Shown in pieces: positions 28,997 through 41,022 of a stretch of 64,000 nucleotides of DNA. Made by a program: the position numbers and the translations under genes. Numbering within the stretch: position 1 is the first letter of the stretch; every line of letters starts with the position of its first letter. The DNA is from Psychrobacter sp. GP33 (GTDB lineage: Bacteria > Pseudomonadota > Gammaproteobacteria > Pseudomonadales > Moraxellaceae). The stretch lies in NCBI RefSeq assembly GCF_014119005.1, contig NZ_JACGYX010000003.1, positions 186,001-250,000 of the forward strand, read 5' to 3'. The notes below the pieces were generated by a model, which ran no database searches, was not told where the DNA came from, and worked only from the letters and a program-made list of their open reading frames with translations.

Positions 28997-29032
28997 AAAA
29001 AGCCGAGACTATGATAAGTCTCGGCTTTTTTT
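28997..29032. terminator. bidirectional intrinsic terminator, ilvE / deacetylase
   Basis: Stem AAAAGCCGAGACT with its complement AGTCTCGGCTTTT around a 6-base loop, A run left and T run right; it sits between convergent genes and can serve both. Confidence 0.92.
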
Positions 29033-29088: not shown

Positions 29089-30069
29089 TTATCTAATATC
29101 CGACCAACGCAGCAAACGTACGTCGTAATCATATAATAACTGTTCAAATTGATGACTCATTAGCCACTCGTATTCATGCTCACGCGCTATTTTAATCTCA
29201 TCTTGCCAGTGATTGGCTGGAATGGCAGGATGGCACATAATCAGAGTTGTGGTGACATTATCGGGTAGCGCAATCGGAGCCGCGTGAATGGCTGGGGTAG
29301 TGGAGCCATATTGTGCATAGGTACCCAATGATTCAATACTGAAGGGCAATGTATGCAGCGCAGGCGCTAAATATGGTGTGCGTGGGGTATTGGCTAACCA
29401 ACGCTCCCACAACACTGCAAGCTCTTGAAAACCAGCATCAAAGCCATATACCCCACCAAAATAATCATTTGTCGTAATATGGTTTTCTGAACATAGTTTG
29501 CGCCACGCATGACCACCAAGACCGTAAATAATCCAAGATTTGAAATCATTAACCAATGGCATAGTGGCACGTGCGCTAATTGAGTTTCGCGTTTCTTCAC
29601 CATAACGGGCACTGAGCTCTTTAATCAGGCTCTGACGAATGAAGGGGAACTGATGAATATGTTGGTGACCGTCAATAAAAATAGGCGCGCGACCAAAGGT
29701 ATTCTCAAAACTATCCAGTTGTCGACGAATGATATCAGTCACTTGTGCTACTTTAAGACGTCGCAGGTAGCTACTTATCACCAAAGATTTTAATGAACTA
29801 CGCAATTCTGAGGGAAATATACCTGTGAAGTCTAAGTGCAAGCCAATATCTACATTCAATTGTGTCAGTGTACTGATATCACCATCAGTAATATGACCAC
29901 CTACCATATAGCTACTGGCACCAACACGTCCACGTTCCGCTAGACGAATAACGGCATCATTGACTGCGCTGGACAAGCCAAGATCATCAACATTGATAAT
30001 AATGGCACGGGCGGATTTTGACGGTAGTGTGCTCTTTTGCCGAGCAGTTTTATGTTTTATTGTAATCAT
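29089..30069 (-). CDS. YdjC/ChbG-family deacetylase, NaxD-like
   Basis: 326 aa. YdjC-family carbohydrate deacetylase: metal-site motifs IINVDDLGLS (about residues 24-33), GLHLDFTG (about 95-102), IDGHQHIHQFP (about 131-141) and MCHP. ChbG deacetylates chito-oligosaccharides, HpnK hopanoids, and NaxD (Francisella, Acinetobacter) the undecaprenyl-phosphate-linked GalNAc used for lipid A. Context decides for a NaxD role: it is the last gene of an operon with a GtrA protein, a polyprenyl-phosphate GT2 and an ArnT-like GT39, overlapping gtrA by 4 bases. Active face predicted in the cytoplasm; no signal peptide. Confidence 0.85.
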   Translation of the reverse strand: MITIKHKTARQKSTLPSKSARAIIINVDDLGLSSAVNDAVIRLAERGRVGASSYMVGGHITDGDISTLTQLNVDIGLHLDFTGIFPSELRSSLKSLVISSYLRRLKVAQVTDIIRRQLDSFENTFGRAPIFIDGHQHIHQFPFIRQSLIKELSARYGEETRNSISARATMPLVNDFKSWIIYGLGGHAWRKLCSENHITTNDYFGGVYGFDAGFQELAVLWERWLANTPRTPYLAPALHTLPFSIESLGTYAQYGSTTPAIHAAPIALPDNVTTTLIMCHPAIPANHWQDEIKIAREHEYEWLMSHQFEQLLYDYDVRLLRWSDIR

Positions 30070-30542
30070 GATTTAAATGCCCAAAGTTTACCCAATGCAA
30101 AAGTCATAACAGTAATAATAGCGGTCACGACCAACCATATCAGTATGTAGTAGCGCTCACCTAACCAGTTGAGTCCCAGTACGAACAATCCTTGATTGAC
30201 TATAAATCCGGCAGCGGAACTGGCGAACCATTTTAGCAGTGTTTGTAACGTATTGGTTTTTTCCCTATAGGACGTGTCTGCGTTGTCTTGACTAGTGTTA
30301 CTATTGATAGTATCAGGGATAGAATGACGAAAGGTGAGATAAAAATGACCCATAAAGCTAACAATAAATGCCACTAAAAAAGCGAAAATATTTGCTAAAG
30401 CTGGGCGAGTGGCAGTGATATTAACGATACCAACCAGCACTAAAAAATGCACTAGAGCCGCACTTGCACCTACTACCAAAAACCAAAGCGCCTGCTTAGA
30501 TGATGACGGTTTAGACGACGATGTCGTGCTGGCATTATTCAT
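30066..30542 (-). CDS. GtrA-family membrane protein
   Basis: 158 aa with four hydrophobic segments (about residues 17-36, 42-61, 95-117 and 130-150) and the family pattern FLVVGASAALVHFLVLVGIVN. GtrA-like proteins are proposed to flip polyprenyl-phosphate-linked sugars across the inner membrane. A Ser-rich N-terminus and a hydrophilic loop (about 70-92) are variable parts. It overlaps the GT2 gene upstream by 8 bases and the deacetylase gene downstream by 4, so the three are translationally coupled and should act on one lipid-linked sugar. Confidence 0.85.
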   Translation of the reverse strand: MNNASTTSSSKPSSSKQALWFLVVGASAALVHFLVLVGIVNITATRPALANIFAFLVAFIVSFMGHFYLTFRHSIPDTINSNTSQDNADTSYREKTNTLQTLLKWFASSAAGFIVNQGLFVLGLNWLGERYYILIWLVVTAIITVMTFALGKLWAFKS

Positions 30543-31671
30543 GACTAGTAGGAGCAGTAGGCGAATGCATTTGAAGAATAGAGCGGTTCTCTACCTTCTC
30601 ATTTATAATGTTGTCATTAACAATGCAATTATTTGCAGCATTTTCGTTACCATCATTACTACTAATGGTCTCACTAATCAAGTATAGAGGACGCTGTTTT
30701 ACTTCTTCATATAGTCTGCCGATATATTCACCAATCACGCCAATACATACCAGCTGAATGCCTGTTGAGAACATAATACCAGCCGCTACTGTCGCCCAAC
30801 CTTCAACATCATTGCCAAATAATATTGTTTCAATAACAATATACAAGCCATATAAGAAAGCCAGTGCGGAGACTGCAAAGCCCATCCGTGATATTAACCG
30901 TAACGGCTTTTGTGAAAAAGAGGTAATGCCGACCAGTGCTAACTCAAATAAACTGCCAAAGTTAAATTTGCTCTCACCAGTATCGCGATTGTCCGCAGTA
31001 AATGGTAGATAAACCGTGTTAAAACCAACCCAAGCGTACAAGCCTTTCATAAACCGTTGCCGCTCAGGAAGTGCGCGCAATGCCAGCACCACCTTACGAT
31101 TCATCACTCGAAAATCACCAGCATTGGGTCGAATCTTATAGCGTTGGCTGTCTTGAATAAAATGATAGAAACTACCTTTTAATGCCTTTGCAACTCGACT
31201 TTCATGAGGGCGGTCTGCTTGAATACCTGCCACCATGTCGATATCAGACTGCGTCATCATAGTGAGCATTTGTGCTAATACGGATAAAGGGTGCTGACCA
31301 TCCGCATCAATCATTGTCACAAGCTCACCTTCTGCGATGGCAAGACCAGCGCTCAATGCAGGCTCCTTACCAAAGTTACGCGATAATCGCACCAAATGCA
31401 ATGTCGTATTTAGTGGGCAGATAGGCATTAATCGCTTGACCACGCCGACCACATCATCACGGCTACCATCATCAATAATGATAATCTCGCAGTTTGCTAA
31501 AGGTTTATTTGCAAGGCTATCTTGATGAGAAGATTTAAGTCCAGCACTATCATTAGTATGAGCAGGCAATGCTGCCGTGAAGGCAAACACTTGAGGTAAA
31601 AATGATTGCAAAGCTTCTGCATCATTATACGCTGGCATAATAAGCGACAAATAAGGCTGGACTTTAGACAT
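30535..31671 (-). CDS. GT2 polyprenyl-phosphate glycosyltransferase (DPM1/GtrB/FlmF type)
   Basis: 378 aa from the ATG at 31669-31671; ATGs at 31683 and 31689 also fit. GT-A fold: LSLIMPAYNDAEAL at the start, IIIDDGSRDD, NFGKEPALSAGLA, the DXD-like MIDADGQHP (about residues 118-126), DFRVMNRKVV, then two C-terminal transmembrane segments (about 250-275 and 285-310) as in GtrB and ArnC. It should transfer a sugar from a nucleotide donor to undecaprenyl phosphate on the cytoplasmic face. The last 60 residues are Asn/Ser-rich and atypical. By analogy with Francisella FlmF it would make the Und-P-HexNAc substrate of the neighbouring deacetylase. Confidence 0.87.
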   Translation of the reverse strand: MSKVQPYLSLIMPAYNDAEALQSFLPQVFAFTAALPAHTNDSAGLKSSHQDSLANKPLANCEIIIIDDGSRDDVVGVVKRLMPICPLNTTLHLVRLSRNFGKEPALSAGLAIAEGELVTMIDADGQHPLSVLAQMLTMMTQSDIDMVAGIQADRPHESRVAKALKGSFYHFIQDSQRYKIRPNAGDFRVMNRKVVLALRALPERQRFMKGLYAWVGFNTVYLPFTADNRDTGESKFNFGSLFELALVGITSFSQKPLRLISRMGFAVSALAFLYGLYIVIETILFGNDVEGWATVAAGIMFSTGIQLVCIGVIGEYIGRLYEEVKQRPLYLISETISSNDGNENAANNCIVNDNIINEKVENRSILQMHSPTAPTSHE

Positions 31672-31776
31672 GAATACACTCATTAGCATTGGTTAGCAGG
31701 AATAACTACCGAACAGTTATGCATGGATATCTATTTCTTATGATGATTACTGTACCGATTGTCATTATGTTGACGA

Positions 31777-33348
31777 TTATCGTACCGACTTTTGGCAATG
31801 TATTGGCACATAAGCCACCCAATTCACAATAAGTGATAGCTTAGCATTACTATCGCGCCAATTAACTTGCCATTGGCCTTGATGTTTAACCCAACCTTTA
31901 TTCGTACTATTAAGCGCAGTATTAGTCAACTCATCGAGCAGGGGCAATTCAATATCATTATTATCTTGCCACATTACTAACGTACCATTTTTTTGTAGGC
32001 GCTCGCTTGTCATCCATGGTGAGTGGCTTGCAGGTCCTGAAATCATTTGTGAAGGAAAGCCATTATTCATCGCAACCAATGCACCAAGCCAGCGATCACC
32101 TGACACGCTATCTAAAGTACAGATGCTTAATGACTGCCATGTCTCTTGCGCCTGCGCAGCTAATGCCTGTTCAGGCCACTGCATACGAGAAGGTTTATGG
32201 CGTATTTTATCACCGAAACCCACATATACCATCATCAATACTGTGGCAAGTATCAACCAGATAGTTAAGGCTTTACGAAGTTTTACCGTGGCTACAGCCT
32301 GTGCAGCAGGGATAATAAATGACGCTGCCAATAATCCTGACAGTCCCCACATAGGCATACCCCACATATCACGCAGACCAATGCCAAACACTAAACTTAA
32401 TACAACCACCACCATCATGGGTGCGATCCAAAGATACCACAACAGTGCTGCACCAGCTGGTAAGTTATGCTTGTAGGAATATACACTAAATAGACGCTTA
32501 CGATTAAAAATAAGCATCAATAATAAAGGAGTATGGGCAGCCAACTGGGCTGCGATAAAACCAATCCCACTAAAATGGCGCTTAATACTGCTGGCAAGCG
32601 CACTTCCTTCTTGTGAGCGTCCATTAGCATAACTAAGCGGCAGCCAATCATTCTGTATCAGCCAATACAGATGCGGTGAAAAAATAATTAGCATGATAAA
32701 GGCAGCGAGCCATGGTTGCGGTTTTTTAAGAAGTGCCCACTGTTTTGGTAATGCTAAGTAAAGCGCCATAGGAATCAGCAAAAAGATGACGGTATATTTC
32801 GTCAACATTCCTATACCGCCCAATACTCCAAGCAATATCCAGTCAGTCAATAGATTACGCGTTAACGCTTGATAAAAAGCTAAGTATAGCCCGACCCAAA
32901 TAGGAAATTGAGCAATATTATGGTTGAATTCAAGGCTTGGATAGACATAATAAGTGACCGCAAGGGTCAACACACTACCGAGTAATGCCGTCTCTTTTGA
33001 CCAAACTTTTTTACCCAGCTGATAAACTAAAACAAGCGTCAGTAAAATATACAATTGACTGAGTAAATAAGGACCAATATGTCCAAATATTCGGTAAAAA
33101 CTGTACAATACCCAAGAGGAGAAAGGCGGATGCTTATAATAGCCCCATTGCCATTCACTGCCCCAATTAATACCTTCGCTGACGTCAAGTGGTACACTGC
33201 TGGAGAGGAAAGCTGGCGCAACCGTCCAAATCAGGAAGTAAGCCAATAAGAAAAAACCAAACAACTGCCAGTTTTTTTGTCTATCAATAATGCCATCACA
33301 TGGTAACATTGTATGAGAGTTGGGCTCGTTGTTGAAGAACTGGGTCAT
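31777..33348 (-). CDS. ArnT/FlmK-like GT39 polyprenyl-P-sugar transferase
   Basis: 523 aa. PMT_2/GT39 membrane transferase: about 12 hydrophobic segments, a periplasmic first loop with PLDVSEGINWGSEWQWGYYKHPP (acidic catalytic residue region, about residues 53-75) and a C-terminal periplasmic domain from about 400. ArnT and FlmK transfer aminoarabinose or galactosamine from undecaprenyl phosphate to lipid A phosphate. First gene of the operon with GT2, GtrA and the NaxD-like deacetylase (105 bases to the GT2 start). A promoter at 33417-33446 precedes it. It is not a close ArnT by length or motif, so the sugar is more likely a hexosamine. Confidence 0.83.
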   Translation of the reverse strand: MTQFFNNEPNSHTMLPCDGIIDRQKNWQLFGFFLLAYFLIWTVAPAFLSSSVPLDVSEGINWGSEWQWGYYKHPPFSSWVLYSFYRIFGHIGPYLLSQLYILLTLVLVYQLGKKVWSKETALLGSVLTLAVTYYVYPSLEFNHNIAQFPIWVGLYLAFYQALTRNLLTDWILLGVLGGIGMLTKYTVIFLLIPMALYLALPKQWALLKKPQPWLAAFIMLIIFSPHLYWLIQNDWLPLSYANGRSQEGSALASSIKRHFSGIGFIAAQLAAHTPLLLMLIFNRKRLFSVYSYKHNLPAGAALLWYLWIAPMMVVVVLSLVFGIGLRDMWGMPMWGLSGLLAASFIIPAAQAVATVKLRKALTIWLILATVLMMVYVGFGDKIRHKPSRMQWPEQALAAQAQETWQSLSICTLDSVSGDRWLGALVAMNNGFPSQMISGPASHSPWMTSERLQKNGTLVMWQDNNDIELPLLDELTNTALNSTNKGWVKHQGQWQVNWRDSNAKLSLIVNWVAYVPIHCQKSVR

Positions 33349-33665
33349 GACTACACTCTTCTTATCATTCGATCGGCACCGTGCCCGAAATTACGTAACT
33401 CGTTTTATCACAGTAATTTATAATTACGATGGACTAATATTGTAAAGTTGAGCGATATTATAGAGAGTATCGATAAGTGATAATAGTAAGAAAATATTTA
33501 TTCTGCGGTATAGAGTTAATCTCCCAAATTATTGTTGTGTGAAATATGTAACGTAAATCAGCTAAACACTATATAAATAAGCACGATATTAATTTTTTAA
33601 TTCATGCTTTTAAAAGCTACGCAATACCCATTTCCGAATGGTTCATTAGATTAAGAGAGTATATT
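33349..33665. other. divergent intergenic region of the envelope locus
   Basis: 317 bases between the GT39 operon (minus) and the GT8-like gene (plus). Contains the promoter at 33417-33446, a small GGCAC-C-GTGCC palindrome (33375-33385) in the predicted GT39 leader, and an AAGAGAG Shine-Dalgarno before 33666. No gene. Confidence 0.5.
33417..33446 (-). promoter_or_regulatory. sigma-70-like promoter of the lipid A sugar operon
   Basis: On the minus strand TTTACA (33441-33446), 18-base spacer, TATAAA (33417-33422); each box matches consensus at five of six positions. It would start transcription about 60 bases before the GT39 start. Confidence 0.5.
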
Positions 33666-34529
33666 ATGGACGATGAAGTTATCAAAGTATTTGTTGGATG
33701 TGATCCCAACAACTGTGATTTAGAACAGATGATGGTACTGGATTACAGCATTCATAAGCATACCAGCTTACCTGTTGAAATTGTATGGATGCAACTATCA
33801 CGCGATCCTAACAGTTATTGGTACTCAAACCCTGAAACGGGTGAGGGCTGGAATACATCTAAATGGGCAACGCCTTTCTCAGGATTCCGCTGGGCAATTC
33901 CAGAGTATTGCGATTTTACTGGAAAAGCGATTTATATGGATGCTGATGTTGTTATTCTAAGCGATTTAGCAGAACTATGGAATTATCCTATTGGTGGACA
34001 AGCGATAGTAGCCGCAAAAACAAATGCCGATATGATCCGTTTATGTACTTGTGTATGGGACTGTAGTGCTGCAAAAAATGTAGTATTACCCATTGAACAG
34101 TTAAAAAAAGATATTAATGCTCATAAATTAATGATGAGTATGATTGAGAAGAACCCACAGTTGGTTGAACCTTATCAAGACAGTTATAATTGTGTAGACG
34201 GAGAATCATTAGCGATAGAAGAAATCAAGATACTACACTACTCAGATATGGGTACTCAGTTTAGTCATAAATATGCATTAGCAAGAGTGAAGGAAGAAGG
34301 TTTTCAGCATTGGTTTGATGGCAATATCATGCCACATCCAAGATTAGAGCTGGTCGAGTTATTTGATAGCTATTATAATGAAGCGCTTGCTGCTGGTCAT
34401 CAGCTCGATAGCTATCGCATAGACCCTTTTGGACGCTTTCCAAAAAAGACCCATCGTCGCTATAAAGGTAATAGAATAACCCGCCCAAAAGATTCCAAAT
34501 CATTTTTTTCGCGATTTTTTAACCGTTGA
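33666..34529 (+). CDS. GT8-like glycosyltransferase
   Basis: 287 aa. Starts with IKVFVGCDPNNCDLEQMMVLDYSIHKH, the usual first strand and helix of GT-A family 8-like enzymes, and carries YMDADVVILSDLAELW (about residues 95-110) with the metal-binding DAD. The C-terminus is basic (KKTHRRYKGNRITRPK), a likely membrane-association patch, with no transmembrane helix. Such enzymes add hexoses or hexosamines to LOS core on the cytoplasmic face. First gene of the mixed-strand LOS cluster; the GT25 gene follows after 71 bases. Donor and acceptor cannot be read from sequence. Confidence 0.8.
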   Translation: MDDEVIKVFVGCDPNNCDLEQMMVLDYSIHKHTSLPVEIVWMQLSRDPNSYWYSNPETGEGWNTSKWATPFSGFRWAIPEYCDFTGKAIYMDADVVILSDLAELWNYPIGGQAIVAAKTNADMIRLCTCVWDCSAAKNVVLPIEQLKKDINAHKLMMSMIEKNPQLVEPYQDSYNCVDGESLAIEEIKILHYSDMGTQFSHKYALARVKEEGFQHWFDGNIMPHPRLELVELFDSYYNEALAAGHQLDSYRIDPFGRFPKKTHRRYKGNRITRPKDSKSFFSRFFNR

Positions 34530-34600
34530 ACTGTCAAATGAAACTGTTAATTATCATTAAAAGATAGCTCTATTTTTAATTACGGATTTTTGAGAACTTA

Positions 34601-35407
34601 ATGAAAAAGCTTATTATTAGTTTAGAAAATGCTCACGATAGAAGGCAGCACATAAAAGAACAGTTTGAAAGTAATAATATTTCTTATGAGTTTTTTGATG
34701 CAGTCAATGCCACTCAGATTGACACTGTTGCTAAGAAATTGAATATTCCAATTACTAATACACGACTAGGGACAAATGAAATCGCCTGTTTTTTGAGTCA
34801 TGCTAGCATTTGGCAGTTAGCTGTAGAAAATAATTATCCATATGTTTGCGTTTTTGAGGATGATGTTTATTTAGGTGAAAATGCAGAATTTTATTTGAAT
34901 AATATCTTAGAATGGAAGCCTGATGACGCTCACATCTTGAAACTAGAAGTTTATAATAAAGACATTAAAGTTAATGGACGCTTTAAAAGCCTAAAGGTTG
35001 GCGACAGAAAACTTGTAAAATTGGCGACAAAGCATACTGGCTGTGCAGGGTATGTAATTACACTCGAAACCGCTCATATTTTACTCGATATAGTACGAAA
35101 TTATGAGGGATTAATTCCTGTTGACCATATTGTTTTTGGTGATTTTTTACATAATTATGATGCTAATATATATCAGATTTTGCCTGCAATTTGCATTCAA
35201 AGTCAGCATTATAAGCATGCTAAATCACTCATTAGTTATCTTGAGCATGAAAGAAATGATAGATATGGAATGCCTAAAAATAATAAGAAATTTATGGATA
35301 AGGTAGTTAGAGAAGGAAAACGACTAATTAAACAACCTATCAATATTATTGAAAGGATTAACCTTAGATTAAAAGGGATTAAAGAGCTAAGATTAACCTT
35401 TAGATGA
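34601..35407 (+). CDS. GT25-family LOS glycosyltransferase
   Basis: 268 aa. Family 25 (LgtB/Lex1/LpsA type): MKKLIISLENAHDRRQHI at the start, the FFDAVNATQ turn, IACFLSHASIWQLAV, and the catalytic VCVFEDDVYLGENAEFYL (EDDV, about residues 85-88), then VDHIVFGDFL. Members add galactose or other hexoses to LOS of Neisseria, Haemophilus and Moraxella. The coding sequence is noticeably more AT-rich than the housekeeping genes here, as often seen for exchanged LOS genes. The basic C-terminus may contact the membrane. Likely cotranscribed with the GT8-like gene. Confidence 0.88.
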   Translation: MKKLIISLENAHDRRQHIKEQFESNNISYEFFDAVNATQIDTVAKKLNIPITNTRLGTNEIACFLSHASIWQLAVENNYPYVCVFEDDVYLGENAEFYLNNILEWKPDDAHILKLEVYNKDIKVNGRFKSLKVGDRKLVKLATKHTGCAGYVITLETAHILLDIVRNYEGLIPVDHIVFGDFLHNYDANIYQILPAICIQSQHYKHAKSLISYLEHERNDRYGMPKNNKKFMDKVVREGKRLIKQPINIIERINLRLKGIKELRLTFR

Positions 35408-35442
35408 AGAATATGCTATTGGGTTTTAGAGGTCTTAAAATA

Positions 35443-36138
35443 TTAGCTAAATATACTGTATGCTATGATAGCAATAACAACTAAAACTCCTAAACCAATA
35501 ATCCGATTGCGTGTTCTTATGTTTTTCCTTTTAAGCTTTGTTTGACCACGACTTGCTTGGTATTGTTCGATATAAACTTCACCATCGTAGTTTTTATCAA
35601 ATATTTTTATATAACCGGGGTTTAGTGGCTCGACAGTTAAGGTATCGCCAAGCTTGTCCATAGCAACATCCAAACTGTCCTGATCAACTTGAGTGCGTTT
35701 GCCATTCACCTGCTCAGTAATCCATTGTTCAACAAGTTTAGTAGTGTTGTTGGTATTTTTAAAGAACATGGTGCTGGCTAGATAATCATGCGACATACCA
35801 GGCATCCCTTTGGTTTTGTAAAAGGCAACGTCTGCTACGATACGATTAAAGTAATCCAAAGGTTTTTTTACAAGCGCATCAGCGTCTAAATATAAGATAT
35901 CTTTTTCTGAAAATTGCTGTAAACATTCTAAGATGAAATGTGGTTTGATGCGGGTATTTGCTTCCCAATATCCTGCATCTTCGACTTCTTTAAAATAATA
36001 ATTTAAGTTGAAATCGTCAAGAGATTGTTTTAAAGACATCGCATGATCGCGATAGCTGTCGGTGTAGAAGCAACACACAAGAAAGCTATCAGGAGCATTC
36101 ATATTTATAAAAGATGAAGAGGGTAAAGTTGTTGTCAT
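35443..36138 (-). CDS. GT-A-like protein with C-terminal membrane anchor
   Basis: 231 aa. The N-terminal part resembles a nucleotide-sugar transferase fold: FLVCCFYTDSYRDHAMSLKQSL and KDILYLDADALVKKPLDYF (DAD at about residues 102-104), with an EANTRIKPHFI stretch. It is shorter than most GT-A enzymes. A single hydrophobic helix (about residues 211-231, GLGVLVVIAIIAYSIFS) ends the protein, preceded by a Lys/Arg-rich segment (KLKRKNIRTRNR), so it should be tail-anchored with the domain in the cytoplasm. It follows the unknown gene at 36182-37024 by 43 bases on the same strand. A LOS glycosyltransferase role is inferred, not proven. Confidence 0.65.
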   Translation of the reverse strand: MTTTLPSSSFINMNAPDSFLVCCFYTDSYRDHAMSLKQSLDDFNLNYYFKEVEDAGYWEANTRIKPHFILECLQQFSEKDILYLDADALVKKPLDYFNRIVADVAFYKTKGMPGMSHDYLASTMFFKNTNNTTKLVEQWITEQVNGKRTQVDQDSLDVAMDKLGDTLTVEPLNPGYIKIFDKNYDGEVYIEQYQASRGQTKLKRKNIRTRNRIIGLGVLVVIAIIAYSIFS

Positions 36139-36181
36139 GAGTCACTCAATAAATTAAAAACAAGTAAGATGGTTCAAAAAC

Positions 36182-37024
36182 TTAAAGTGAGTCTGACCAC
36201 CATTTAGATTTTTCGTCTTTGTGTAATGCGCGCATAGTAGCAAAGGCACTATCATTACTTTGCAGCTTATCAAAAACGTTCAATAATATAGACGTTGCTA
36301 GCTTATCAGAGTGAGAAAAACTTTCATAACGGTTACGCATATTTTTTAAAGTGTCGTCGGAACCGATACGAAAATAGGTTAAGCCATTGTATAAAGGAAG
36401 GTCACTGCGATAAAGTGCTTCTATGTTGTCATCGACTAAGGGTATAGAGTCAGAATCAAACTGTAAAAAATTTTTGGTTTCGTAAACTCTGAGCGTATTC
36501 ATGAGAGTGGAGACATTCAACAAAATAGCAGCTCTAACCCTATCATTTGTCTGATCAATAAACGTATCACAAGCTGAAATAATCCATCGTAGCGATAAAT
36601 GATTTAATAAATAATCTGTTTCTGTATTCCATAGATTCTCAAATTCAGCAAAGGTCTCATCCGTTTTGTAGCCTCGACGTAGTAATACAATTAAGTTCGC
36701 ATGATAAAAACACAGTTCCGACTGTTCAATAAATTGATGCTTTAAGTTATCCAAATGCTCTTTTAAATCCTTTGTGCGAGGCTTATTAGTTATAGCCATA
36801 GGATTGCACATTGAGGGAGTAATAATCGAAGCCTTCATCTCATCAATACTTTTTTCAGTAAATCTATTAATAATTGCTTTAGCATTAAGTGTTTTTTCAC
36901 TCTTAAATAATAAAATAAGCTGACGCTGCCATCCTGAAGATGTTGTCATATCATTAAAGCCTTGCTCATAAAGATAATTATATTGAATTGTTGCATGGAG
37001 TAGTTCAGTGAAGTAGTTTGACAA
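36182..37024 (-). CDS. helical protein of unknown family in the LOS cluster
   Basis: 280 aa if started at the TTG at 37022-37024; the first in-frame ATG is at 36947-36949 and has an AAGG about 10 bases upstream, giving 255 aa. I recognise no family. The sequence is almost wholly alpha-helical in character, without signal peptide or transmembrane segment, with several amphipathic stretches and a Trp-rich end (KWWSDSL). It lies 69 bases from the divergent GT4 gene and directly ahead of the anchored GT-A-like gene, so a partner or sugar-modifying role in LOS assembly is plausible but only from context. Confidence 0.6.
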   Translation of the reverse strand: MSNYFTELLHATIQYNYLYEQGFNDMTTSSGWQRQLILLFKSEKTLNAKAIINRFTEKSIDEMKASIITPSMCNPMAITNKPRTKDLKEHLDNLKHQFIEQSELCFYHANLIVLLRRGYKTDETFAEFENLWNTETDYLLNHLSLRWIISACDTFIDQTNDRVRAAILLNVSTLMNTLRVYETKNFLQFDSDSIPLVDDNIEALYRSDLPLYNGLTYFRIGSDDTLKNMRNRYESFSHSDKLATSILLNVFDKLQSNDSAFATMRALHKDEKSKWWSDSL

Positions 37025-37093
37025 ATATTATGACATTAATCTACTGATGCTCAGTATTTATCTTTAGAACTTACTAAATATATTAAGAATCTT

Positions 37094-38206
37094 ATGAATC
37101 CACCCATTATCTTATTCATCTTAAAAGCACTGGAAGGGCGCGGTGCAGAACGCATGGTCACGACATTAGCGCGTGCTTATATTGAGATGAGCTATGATGT
37201 GCATGTATTGTGTTTAGAGGACACAAAGGATATGCGCTTAGACCCTCGCGTACATTACCATATCGTGCATTATAATGAGCCGTTATTGGATACAGAAATG
37301 GAGCAGGCAGCGACTTATAAACAAGTTGCAGGGCGCATCGATAACTATGTGCTTAAGAATATAGGAATGCCTGAACTAATTCTGGCGAATATCTACAAAG
37401 TCAATTGGATTATGGCATATAGTCAGTTGCCTAATATCGTAAATGTCTTACATACCGCGTTATCCAGACAGTTTGAAGAGGATTTAAAGAGCACTCCTAA
37501 ACAGATGATTAAACATTTAAAAATAGTTTATCGCGCTCATCCTTGTAGCTGTGTGAGTGATGGCGCGCGTCAAGACTTGTTAGCTCTTATCGGTAATTCT
37601 GATAAAGTAACGAAGATCTATAACCCCTGTGATGTGAATCAAATCCAAAAATTGGCAAGCCAGCCTTTTTCTCTTAAAGAATTTGGCTTGACTAATAAAA
37701 GCTATATCATTCATGTTGGTTCATTTGACAGTATGAAAGGTCATCGAGACTTGCTGCACGCTTATGCTAAAACACAGCGTAAGCTGCCATTAATTTTGGT
37801 CGGTAAAGGGCGACTTGAAGAAGAAATTAAACAGCTGGCATGTGAATTAAGTATTAATAACGATATCAAATTTTTGGGATTTCAAAACAATCCTTATCCT
37901 CTTATTGCTAATGCTGCATTGCTGATATTAAGCTCAAAATTTGAAGGGTTTGGCTACGTTATCGTTGAAGCGCAAGCATTGAATGTACCGGTGATTAGCA
38001 CCGACTGCCCATTTGGTCCAAGAGAGTTGTTACCCAAGAAAAACCTAGTTGATGTTGGTGATATCGACGGATTGTCAGTTCTAATAGATGAGGCTGTAGT
38101 GTGTCCAGACACTTACAATGTACCTCTTAAGCAGCAATTGTCACCCATTATTATTGCTCAACAGTATTTAGATTTTTTATTATCAATAAAGAATGATACT
38201 AATTAA
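37094..38206 (+). CDS. GT4-family glycosyltransferase
   Basis: 370 aa, GT-B fold. N-terminal domain begins PPIILFILKALEGRGAERMVTTLARAY; the C-terminal nucleotide-binding domain starts at IIHVGSFDSMKGHRDLLHAYA (about residues 209-229), continues with LILVGKGRLEEEI, IKFLGFQNNPYPLIANAALLILSSKFEGFGYVIVEAQALNVPVIST, holding the family-4 E-x7-E element. Typical of enzymes that add Glc, Gal or GlcNAc to LOS core. Its stop lies 7 bases from the stop of the converging gene, with no terminator between. A TTGACA-N16-TCTACT element (37018-37045) could be its promoter. Confidence 0.9.
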   Translation: MNPPIILFILKALEGRGAERMVTTLARAYIEMSYDVHVLCLEDTKDMRLDPRVHYHIVHYNEPLLDTEMEQAATYKQVAGRIDNYVLKNIGMPELILANIYKVNWIMAYSQLPNIVNVLHTALSRQFEEDLKSTPKQMIKHLKIVYRAHPCSCVSDGARQDLLALIGNSDKVTKIYNPCDVNQIQKLASQPFSLKEFGLTNKSYIIHVGSFDSMKGHRDLLHAYAKTQRKLPLILVGKGRLEEEIKQLACELSINNDIKFLGFQNNPYPLIANAALLILSSKFEGFGYVIVEAQALNVPVISTDCPFGPRELLPKKNLVDVGDIDGLSVLIDEAVVCPDTYNVPLKQQLSPIIIAQQYLDFLLSIKNDTN

Positions 38207-38213
38207 AAGATCA

Positions 38214-39116
38214 TTAATTAAAATTAAAAAGAGATTGAGAAATAGGGGAATGGTTGATAACTGATACGCCGTGCGATTTATAGACTTTAGCCAATAAATC
38301 AAAGGATGGCACAATACGCTCATGAACTGCTTTGTCGAGTTTACTTGGTGCGCTATTGCTAGCGCTTTCATAAAATCGTGGCTGGCTGCTGTTTAGTAAG
38401 TCAATACCGTACAAATGAATAGCACTTGCTTGACGAGCAAATGCCAATTGCATTGCTACATAGGCAACCGTTCCCGCCTCTACAAATCCATGAGTAATAT
38501 CAAGTGATACACCAATGGCAGCAGGCTTATGACTTGCATCAATTATAAAATGGTCATCATCTGTAAAACAAGATAATGGCTTTCTTCTATGCAGCCATTT
38601 ATTTTTAAAGGTCAACTTACTTAATAAAGATTGGTTTGATTTGACGCCCCAGGGTCTATCAACTGGGTATAAGATGCGCATTGAATCATAATAAGTGCAC
38701 ATGATTTCGGGGTGCGTGATTACCATTGCCTCGAACACTGCTAAAGTAGCATATAAAGGCTGCCCTTTATAGTAGGTCTGTAAAATCTCAGGTTGATGAT
38801 TGATAAAGCGATCATCACTAATCACATAACCTACTACTCTAGTGAAATCATGTTGACCAATAAGGCTAATACTGCCATTGATAAAAATAGTAGCAGTATC
38901 TTGCAGCATTGAAAATGATAATTCAGAAATTGAAGGACCGGAGGCAATAATATTAACGGCTTGCCCATGTAGATTCTGTTGTGCTTCACTGGCATTAAAC
39001 GCTTTAATAGTAATCAGCTGATCGTTAATAACAAAATCAGCGGTAGGAGGTAATGCCAGATTTAGCACCATATTATAATCCGATTTAGTCAGTGATTGTT
39101 TTCTACAGGGTTGCAA
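38214..39116 (-). CDS. DUF115/sialyltransferase-fold-like protein
   Basis: 300 aa, soluble. A Rossmann-like start NIIASGPSISELSFSMLQDTATIFINGSI (about residues 36-64) and, near the C-terminal third, GTVAYVAMQLAFARQASAIHLYGIDLL (about 214-240) recall both DUF115 (motility-associated glycosyltransferase) and GT42 Campylobacter sialyltransferases (GPS... and the IYLxGID segment). YPVDRPWGVK and a late HERIVPSFDLLAKVY helix complete the picture. This suggests transfer of a nonulosonate or similar sugar, but the catalytic residues are not securely identifiable by eye. It neighbours GT4 and another GT-A-like gene in the LOS cluster. Confidence 0.62.
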   Translation of the reverse strand: MQPCRKQSLTKSDYNMVLNLALPPTADFVINDQLITIKAFNASEAQQNLHGQAVNIIASGPSISELSFSMLQDTATIFINGSISLIGQHDFTRVVGYVISDDRFINHQPEILQTYYKGQPLYATLAVFEAMVITHPEIMCTYYDSMRILYPVDRPWGVKSNQSLLSKLTFKNKWLHRRKPLSCFTDDDHFIIDASHKPAAIGVSLDITHGFVEAGTVAYVAMQLAFARQASAIHLYGIDLLNSSQPRFYESASNSAPSKLDKAVHERIVPSFDLLAKVYKSHGVSVINHSPISQSLFNFN

Positions 39117-39158
39117 TAAGCCTAAACAACAGATATTAACGCCTATTTATGAAGGGTG

Positions 39159-39959
39159 TTACTGCCAATAATCTTGTAACCAAGGGCTTGGTTTGACATG
39201 ACGATACCATTTTCCGCCGCCTCCACGAATGGCATCGGGTGGATTAATTTCTCCGTGAAAAATGACGATTTTTGCCCCTTCAGGCAGATAAGGCGCGCGT
39301 ACGAAATTTAATGGAGTAGGCGCCATACATTGGTATTTAAAGCTGACACACCACGTTTTATCCCAATATTCTAAATGATGATGTTCACGCAGATAGTTGG
39401 ACAAGTACGCCTGCTCATGGCGAACTTGAGTGCGAATGGTTTCAAAGTTGCGCTCAAAATTTGCTAGCAAATCAGGATATGTACCCATACCAATATTAAA
39501 ACGATAAACCGAGCTGTTACCGATCATACGCCACGGTTTTTTCCAATCACGGATAATCACCACGCTATCGTCGTGCTCAGTTTGATAAGTAAAAAACGCA
39601 TCGATGTTATCTACAATAACGATATCAATATCTAAAAATAATGCGACACCTTTTAAATCATATAATTCTGGTTTAAAGGTGGTGAGTTTTTTCCAGCCTC
39701 GTTCTGGTCCTGCTGGTAGATTAAGTTCCGGTATAGGGTAGCACTGTACCGCAGCATCAATACCAACACTGTCATCGGTTAAGCAGACCATTTGAAAATC
39801 TAAGGTTAAATGACGACTGACCATATTATATAGACGGTTAACATACTCGGCACCGTATTTATCACCCCACTTCATACAAATAATATAGCGCTGTTCAGGC
39901 ACATTAATGTCTGTTTCTAGGACAGAAGAAGATGAATTTCCAGTTGCGTCAATTGCCAT
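39159..39959 (-). CDS. GT-A-like glycosyltransferase
   Basis: 266 aa. QRYIICMKWGDKYGAEYVNRLYNMVSRHLT at the start of the fold, then LKGVALFLDIDIVIVDNIDAFF (about residues 102-123), a DXD-type metal site written DID, and the C-terminal VIFHGEINPPDAIRGGGGKW block with a His that can complete metal binding. This pattern is common among uncharacterised LOS/capsule glycosyltransferases of Gram-negatives. No membrane segment. It lies 42 bases upstream of the sialyltransferase-fold-like gene on the same strand, probably cotranscribed, and 88 bases behind the acyltransferase gene. Confidence 0.78.
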   Translation of the reverse strand: MAIDATGNSSSSVLETDINVPEQRYIICMKWGDKYGAEYVNRLYNMVSRHLTLDFQMVCLTDDSVGIDAAVQCYPIPELNLPAGPERGWKKLTTFKPELYDLKGVALFLDIDIVIVDNIDAFFTYQTEHDDSVVIIRDWKKPWRMIGNSSVYRFNIGMGTYPDLLANFERNFETIRTQVRHEQAYLSNYLREHHHLEYWDKTWCVSFKYQCMAPTPLNFVRAPYLPEGAKIVIFHGEINPPDAIRGGGGKWYRHVKPSPWLQDYWQ

Positions 39960-40047
39960 GATGCGCTCGTATTAGTATTGATAAAAGTAAAGTTACTCGT
40001 TTATCTTAGCGTAAACCGTCTTATTTGTATGTTGCAATCATGAATGC

Positions 40048-41022
40048 TCAATCTTTAACGTTTTCATCGTGAATGCTATGAACATCACCGTCCATATAAT
40101 TGTTAGAAGAATACTGGGTACGGATAAACGTATCAAGTGTTGCAGGGTCTGCGCGATACGGGTCGTTTAAATAAGGTATATGTTTAAAACGCCGATAACC
40201 CCACATATAATGACTGAAATTTGCTTGAATCATCTGTTCCATTGCCTGATTTAAGGCATAGGTAGAGATAGACACATTACGGTCATATAGCGCCGGATCG
40301 TTTAATTGATAGCAATAAATATCAAATCCCTGTCCGTCATCACGTCGAATACAAGACAGACCTACCAAAGCACACTTTGTTTTGCTTGCTAACTTGGAAG
40401 CAAGGGTACTGGTGAGCGTTTCAATACCAAAAAATGGTACCACGACGCCACCTGATGGTTCGGGTACATGGTCGGGTAGTACGATGCTAAAGCCACCTTG
40501 CTTAAGGGTTTTAAATACTGCTTTCACACCGCTACCATCAGTCGGGACTAAGGTAGCATTTAGCCGTGCCCGTCCTTGTAATATAAAGTTATTGGTAATA
40601 TCGCCTTTAACAGGCTTATACATGATGGTTGGCGCGCCAAATTGATTAAGCCACGCATTCATCATCTCCCATGTTCCTAAGTGCGGTACGATGGCGAGCA
40701 TTCCGTTAGGATTGGCAAGCCCTTCTAATAGGATTTCTTTATGATGAACATCACGAATTTGAGCGATGCTCCATTTAGGCGACATCGCCCAACTTTTAAT
40801 AGATTCAACACTGCTTAAGCATTGATTTTGCACAATACTTTTAACCAACGCTTGTTTTTGCGTATCTGTTAACGTCTGAGCAACCAGTTGCAAATTAATA
40901 TTAATGGTGCGCATGATACTTAAGTTTGGGAACTTTACAATAACCCACGCAGCAAAACGTGCCAGCGTCTGCAAGACAGACAGTGGCACGAATTTAAATA
41001 TTTCATATGGATTCATAATCAC
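40048..41022 (-). CDS. LpxL/LpxM-like lipid A acyltransferase
   Basis: 324 aa. LPLAT superfamily (HtrB/MsbB): the catalytic H-x4-E motif is HLGTWE (about residues 113-118), followed by MYKPVKG, LLPDHVPEPSGGVVVPFFG-type substrate loop (VLPDHVPEPSGG), and the C-terminal MWGYRRFK. An N-terminal hydrophobic helix (about 10-30) anchors it to the inner membrane. LpxL and LpxM add secondary acyl chains to Kdo-lipid A; which position this one serves cannot be told. It is located between aspS and the LOS glycosyltransferases; a 13-bp hairpin (41033-41067) lies just upstream of its ATG. Confidence 0.87.
   Translation of the reverse strand: MIMNPYEIFKFVPLSVLQTLARFAAWVIVKFPNLSIMRTININLQLVAQTLTDTQKQALVKSIVQNQCLSSVESIKSWAMSPKWSIAQIRDVHHKEILLEGLANPNGMLAIVPHLGTWEMMNAWLNQFGAPTIMYKPVKGDITNNFILQGRARLNATLVPTDGSGVKAVFKTLKQGGFSIVLPDHVPEPSGGVVVPFFGIETLTSTLASKLASKTKCALVGLSCIRRDDGQGFDIYCYQLNDPALYDRNVSISTYALNQAMEQMIQANFSHYMWGYRRFKHIPYLNDPYRADPATLDTFIRTQYSSNNYMDGDVHSIHDENVKD

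Follow-up and report, generated by a model that had tools for sequence, protein, structure and literature searches.

A second lineage of four-gene cassettes predicted to modify lipooligosaccharide with an amino-hexose, found in Psychrobacter, Acinetobacter and Neisseriaceae, carries a separate GT-C transferase family

Results

Gene content and boundaries of the operon

We analysed a 64,000-nucleotide stretch of the Psychrobacter sp. GP33 genome (hereafter, the window) that carries, at positions 29089–33348 of its minus strand, four genes predicted to place an amino-hexose on lipooligosaccharide (LOS). In the transcribed order these encode a PMT_2/GT39-type GT-C transferase of 523 amino acids (31777–33348; Pfam PMT_2, 113 bits), for which we predict periplasmic attachment of the amino sugar; a GT2 enzyme of the polyprenyl-phosphate sugar synthase kind of 384 amino acids (30535–31689; Glycos_transf_2, 83 bits), the predicted maker of undecaprenyl-phosphate-linked N-acetylhexosamine (undecaprenyl-P-HexNAc); a GtrA membrane protein of 158 amino acids (30066–30542; GtrA_DPMS_TM, 64 bits), a predicted flippase of lipid-linked sugar; and a YdjC-family deacetylase of 326 amino acids (29089–30069; YdjC, 142 bits), predicted to N-deacetylate undecaprenyl-P-HexNAc. 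All four Pfam matches lie over their cut-offs. The transferase gene is followed by an 87-bp gap, the GT2 gene overlaps gtrA by 8 bp and gtrA overlaps the deacetylase gene by 4 bp. Open reading frames (ORFs) and domain matches bear out the initial annotation, which had described overlapping or closely spaced genes on one strand, and all four genes are intact. Judged from sequence, this four-gene set is widespread and already known, and it is the transferase family that differs here. Genome-wide, the deacetylase is the sole YdjC match and the transferase the sole PMT_2 match (E ≤ 0.001); an EptA-type protein is also encoded in this genome.

Downstream, a terminator-like hairpin at 29030–28997 (−22 kcal/mol, z −7.4) forms the boundary between the operon and the convergent ilvE gene. 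None of 200 shuffled sequences gave an equally good hairpin, and it is absent from the output of the scan that listed promoter-like sites in the region. Upstream, the initial annotation had placed a promoter (TTTACA-18-TATAAA, minus strand) at 33446–33417. This element has 10 of the 12 consensus bases; the region holds 18 promoter-like sites against 20.1 ± 4.7 in shuffled sequence, and the scan did not pick this one. Since such sites are no commoner than in shuffles, the element is no better than chance, and the promoter claim is unproven and was not upheld.

The transferase: ArnT-like fold, separate sequence family

We compared the transferase with those of two kinds of cassette. Type 1 units, found in Acinetobacter, consist of a naxD-like deacetylase, a GT2, a GtrA and a transferase related to FlmK-like proteins and to Escherichia coli ArnT, and type 2 units carry a transferase of the window's family. 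A profile built from 13 type 1 transferases of Acinetobacter and Bordetella retrieved ArnT alone from the PDB at E ≤ 0.1 (5ezm, E = 3.5e-77); the corresponding profile of 13 type 2 sequences had no PDB match at E ≤ 1. At E ≤ 1e-5 the hidden Markov models of the two types had no ORF in common, and an hhalign comparison of the type 2 transferase with E. coli ArnT gave a probability of 10% (E 0.003). The type 1 transferases of Acinetobacter and Bordetella, like E. coli ArnT, have a second Pfam match, to PMT, and the four type 2 transferases scanned match PMT_2 alone. However, the FlmK-like protein of a Francisella-like locus (L104) likewise matches PMT_2 alone, so Pfam by itself cannot divide the transferase types.

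An AlphaFold2 model of the window transferase (mean predicted local distance difference test score, pLDDT, 74.5) placed ArnT at the top of a PDB comparison: 5f15 scored Z 24.9 over 399 residues (root-mean-square deviation 4.9 Å, 14% identity) and 5ezm Z 24.3, with the first non-ArnT rows at Z 19.8. Foldseek concurs that ArnT is closest. The rows comprised ArnT, OST, PMT and other GT-C relatives; Rgt-like PMT_2 enzymes were not among them, which excludes nothing. A model of the Acinetobacter nosocomialis type 1 transferase (pLDDT 87.3) matched ArnT at Z 33.4 over 517 residues. We conclude that the window transferase has the predicted fold of a GT-C enzyme acting on lipid-linked sugars and that, by sequence profile, it belongs to a PMT_2 family separate from ArnT, FlmK and LgmB. 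The earlier description of the protein as ArnT-like thus holds for the predicted fold but not for the sequence family. The border of this family is not sharp, given that, of the best 80 of 569 matching loci in a scan of named genomes, nine hold a PMT_2 protein with a weak type 2 score (74–149 bits), five one with a weak type 1 score and 13 neither. We found no studied member of the type 2 transferase family in the literature.

The donor-making genes

The GT2 enzyme falls within a type 2 clade with support 100 in a 46-row tree, and its Psychrobacter relatives are 36–39% identical to E. coli GtrB. This tree and the deacetylase tree below are quick searches of hand-picked rows with one support value each. 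The clear relationship to GtrB, together with the presence of GT2, GtrA and GT-C genes in one unit, matches the known three-component layout of GtrABS, described in passages of PMC11127046 as a GT2 (GtrB), a proposed GtrA flippase and a GT-C end enzyme with O-antigen as the acceptor. One could accordingly picture the operon as a relative of GtrABS whose target is not LOS but an O-antigen or some other glycan or lipid that is exported. However, E. coli GtrS has no match to the type 2 transferases at E ≤ 1e-4, and a dedicated deacetylase gene overlaps gtrA both in the window and in 16 of the 19 intact Psychrobacter loci described below. We know of no GtrABS system with a deacetylase, and we regard this alternative as improbable.

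The deacetylase retains D28, D29, H78, D133, H135, H137, H139 and C279-H280-P281, which we take to be the metal and catalytic residues. None of them varies in an alignment of 25 rows, E. coli ChbG among them, in agreement with the earlier reading of a YdjC deacetylase with intact motifs. Sharing the Pfam family and the motif residues, the protein might be of the ChbG/HpnK type, acting in chitooligosaccharide or hopanoid metabolism and standing in this operon by accident. Against the NCBIfam equivalog models, however, it scores only 48.4 bits with HpnK (cut-off 232.6) and 66 bits with ChbG (cut-off 227); six YdjC rows from other genomes score 324–390 with the HpnK model, and the named A. nosocomialis and Bordetella deacetylases score low like the window's (51 and 39 bits). 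In an 81-row tree a branch with support 100 separates 64 GT2-linked rows, the window's among them, from 17 ChbG, HpnK and other YdjC rows, and the same gene linkage recurs in 11 named type 2 loci (best 80 of 569). Already contradicted by these results, ChbG/HpnK membership was rejected as very improbable. The phylogeny does not show the clustering with ChbG/HpnK that would have spoken against the initial annotation. The deacetylase is, on sequence grounds, on the NaxD/Lgm side of the YdjC family, a placement that does not imply orthology to NaxD.

Within the same tree the 16 type 2 deacetylases form one group (support 99). A separate group (support 86) holds the type 1 rows of Acinetobacter together with the Francisella-like L104, and the Bordetella lgm-type deacetylase lies in a clade other than the window's; the tree gives no firm branching order among these GT2-linked groups. 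L171, a locus labelled type 1 beforehand, did not join the type 1 group in either tree.

Distribution of type 2 cassettes

Matches to the deacetylase occur in 23 of 100 Psychrobacter genomes, counting the window's own; 21 are long and two (G041 and G067) are fragments containing stops. The four genes lie on one strand in the same order in 19 of the 20 other long-match loci, which indicates that the grouping is not due to chance; in the remaining one (L040, genome G004) the operon is broken and the transferase is in pieces. When L183 is added to these 20 loci, ilvE adjoins the deacetylase gene in 18 of 21, and a GT8-like LOS gene lies beside the transferase gene in eight of 21. In two loci (L048 and L050) no ilvE was found in the flank and a GT8-like gene stands on the transferase side, and L044 ends at a contig edge.

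Across Moraxellaceae, 57 of 249 genomes match the deacetylase profile, none of them with two full matches. In Acinetobacter, two of the 20 deacetylase-matching genomes (L166 and L167) carry type 2 cassettes with the window's gene order and families, the L167 transferase being split. In the named-genome scan, all four type 2 genes were present in 11 of the best 80 of 569 loci (five Psychrobacter, three Snodgrassella, two other Neisseriaceae and A. portensis), with the window's order also kept in A. portensis and the five Neisseriaceae loci, and the type 2 transferase alone was present in two further loci. As defined by sequence families, these cassettes are a second lineage comprising Psychrobacter, two Acinetobacter and Neisseriaceae. 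Their neighbouring genes differ between genera.

Two loci point to mixing between lineages. In Comamonas (L203) and Acidovorax (L256), a transferase of the type 2 family (496–497 bits, 42% identical to the window's) adjoins a GT2 and a deacetylase that their respective trees place apart from the type 2 clades. Most simply read, the end enzyme is able to recombine with different sets of donor-making genes.

Type 1 units and related loci

The remaining 18 of the 20 Acinetobacter loci are type 1, and the four-gene unit is complete in all 18, with split genes in two (the GT2 gene of L157 and the transferase gene of L185). Its order, naxD-GT2-gtrA-transferase, is seen in A. nosocomialis (L235, 7986–11801), L234, L255, L231 and other Acinetobacter loci. 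It shares with the window a YdjC enzyme, a GT2, a GtrA and a GT-C transferase in one unit, but differs in gene order and in the ArnT/FlmK family of its transferase. ArnT-family transferases scoring above 270 bits were found in 46 of the best 80 of 569 named-genome loci.

Bordetella pseudohinzii (L202) and Bordetella sp. LUAb4 (L252) carry a GT2, an ArnT-like transferase and a YdjC gene, with the GtrA gene, presumably lgmD, on the other strand. These loci fit the published four-gene lgmA-D locus, which in passages of PMC4993483, PMC11401268 and PMC11895810 adds glucosamine (GlcN) to lipid A phosphates. The lgm locus thus resembles the window in its four gene families, but its transferase is of the ArnT family, gtrA is on the opposite strand and the deacetylase is in a different clade. 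The Francisella flmF2/flmK/naxD genes follow the same pathway logic, with flmF2 and flmK on neighbouring locus tags (FTN0545/0546). In the Francisella-like L104, FlmK-like, GT2 and NaxD-like genes lie together, no GtrA match was seen beside them, and the FlmK-like transferase is outside the window transferase's family. The initial annotation had presented the operon as a compact form of a pathway whose genes are scattered elsewhere; since Acinetobacter and Bordetella also hold four-gene units and flmF2 and flmK are adjacent in Francisella, that view of the operon as uniquely compact was rejected.

In order to compare regulation, the A. baumannii PmrA box in the form HTTAAD-N5-HTTAAD, taken from the part of PMC9431647 that defines it (a passage of PMC10927774 gives a narrower form), was searched for in the 300 bases that precede the first gene. 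A box precedes 21 of 22 type 1 rows, corresponding to 17 of 18 distinct loci once the repeats L231, L234, L235 and L255 are left out; the exception is L169. Over the whole of these Acinetobacter loci, counting the true boxes, sites occur at a background rate of 0.035 per 300 bases. In contrast, no box was found upstream of any of 25 type 2 rows, or of 22 distinct loci with an intact start (leaving out L040 and L167, where the split transferase gives a false start, and L196, a repeat of L166; for L052 120 bases upstream were covered). The whole window contains one site, at 38202 and ~5 kb off, where 2.1 are expected by chance. The box ties the type 1 units to the studied naxD operon, and the upstream sequences give no sign of that control for type 2; PmrA regulation as in A. 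baumannii naxD, which equivalence would entail although the initial annotation did not claim it, finds no support for the window operon.

Discussion

In Acinetobacter and Francisella, the NaxD pathway puts galactosamine (GalN) on lipid A. The four families that jointly serve such a pathway there and in Bordetella sit in one unit in the window, which supports a model in which the cassette places a free-amine hexosamine on LOS. By analogy with these families, the GT2 would load an N-acetylhexosamine onto undecaprenyl phosphate, the YdjC deacetylase would strip the acetyl group from the resulting undecaprenyl-P-HexNAc, GtrA would carry this lipid-linked sugar across to the periplasmic side, and the GT-C transferase would pass the hexosamine to LOS in the periplasm, most likely onto a lipid A phosphate, where it would lower the net negative charge. 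We consider this model, all of whose reactions are inferred from known families, to be probably correct, with the acceptor and the sugar (GalN or GlcN) its least sure parts. The initial annotation is right in outline and wrong on novelty and on the transferase family.

A flippase role for GtrA is plausible by analogy. According to a passage of PMC11127046, flippase activity of GtrA-like proteins has not been shown directly. In passages of the lgm reports, Bordetella needs lgmA, lgmB and lgmC to put GlcN on lipid A, whereas lgmD is not essential; the work of flipping may accordingly be shared.

Concerning the acceptor, the region beyond the transferase gene (33666–41022) is a neighbourhood of LOS-type genes: a GT8, a GT25, a Nucleotid_trans protein, a GT1/GT4-type glycosyltransferase and, 6.7 kb from the cassette, a lipid A acyltransferase (40048–41022). 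Three ORFs in this neighbourhood (36182–37024, 38214–39116 and 39159–39959) have no Pfam match. The nearness of the cassette to LOS-type glycosyltransferase genes and to the acyltransferase speaks for a lipid A phosphate as the likeliest acceptor.

Rhizobium RgtA and RgtB transfer galacturonic acid to 3-deoxy-D-manno-oct-2-ulosonic acid (Kdo) or a core sugar of LOS. The LOS core-type glycosyltransferase genes adjoining the cassette in the window, the GT8-like gene at eight of 21 Psychrobacter loci and the distance of the transferase from the ArnT-type family all raise the possibility that the same donor pathway serves a different acceptor here, with the hexosamine going to Kdo or a core sugar. 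However, no LOS gene is evident beside the A. portensis and Snodgrassella cassettes, whose neighbours were read from sequence with no domain scan, and the cores are likely to differ between the cassette-bearing genera. Since the neighbours differ across genera, an acceptor common to these bacteria would be favoured, that is, lipid A phosphates over the variable core. A Kdo or core acceptor appears unlikely to us, though clearly less so than the O-antigen reading, and we prefer a lipid A phosphate.

Several observations weigh against the preferred lipid A phosphate model. The transferase lies outside the ArnT/FlmK/LgmB family by sequence, so that a lipid A acceptor cannot be assumed by analogy with them, and the type 2 loci lack the PmrA box. 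The window's transferase type occurs in just 23 of 249 Moraxellaceae genomes (profile, E ≤ 1e-20), and five cassettes in the Moraxellaceae and genus samples are decayed: L040 (G004) and L167 (G623) with split transferases, G080 with an inner stop in the transferase and no deacetylase match, and the fragments in G041 and G067. Such decay is as for a trait repeatedly lost. In the passages of PMC4515632 on P. arcticus, LOS has just two hexosamines with two phosphates, and those of PMC4113819 on P. cryohalolentis give bis-phosphate forms of lipid A and list no sugar-substituted species; these data bear on the model only if the two strains carry the cassette. In passages of PMC9431647, no GalN-modified lipid A was seen in A. 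baumannii and NaxD is rated minor for polymyxin resistance, and those of PMC6635527 point the same way.

A bolder reading, which we hold to be less likely than not, is that the type 2 transferases constitute a separate GT-C family that acts on undecaprenyl-P-hexosamine at an acceptor position other than that of ArnT, FlmK and LgmB (the 4'-phosphate only, Kdo or the core). We found no description of this cassette variant in the literature, which does not show that it is absent from print.

The comparison with Acinetobacter has a consequence of its own. The legend to Fig. 7 of a 2025 preprint (PMC12330716) states that GalN is added to Acinetobacter lipid A 'by an unknown enzyme'. From its family and position, the ArnT-family transferase encoded by the last gene of the naxD unit is the obvious candidate, and a testable one; the gene may already have been named by someone.

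If the bolder reading of the type 2 transferases is true, the cassette would be a donor module of GT2, deacetylase and GtrA that accepts different end enzymes, as the Comamonas and Acidovorax loci suggest. For lipid A hexosamine modification, the comparison sets the conserved genes that make the donor apart from an exchangeable end enzyme. It also draws attention to a transferase family in environmental bacteria and, with Snodgrassella, in bacteria of the bee gut.

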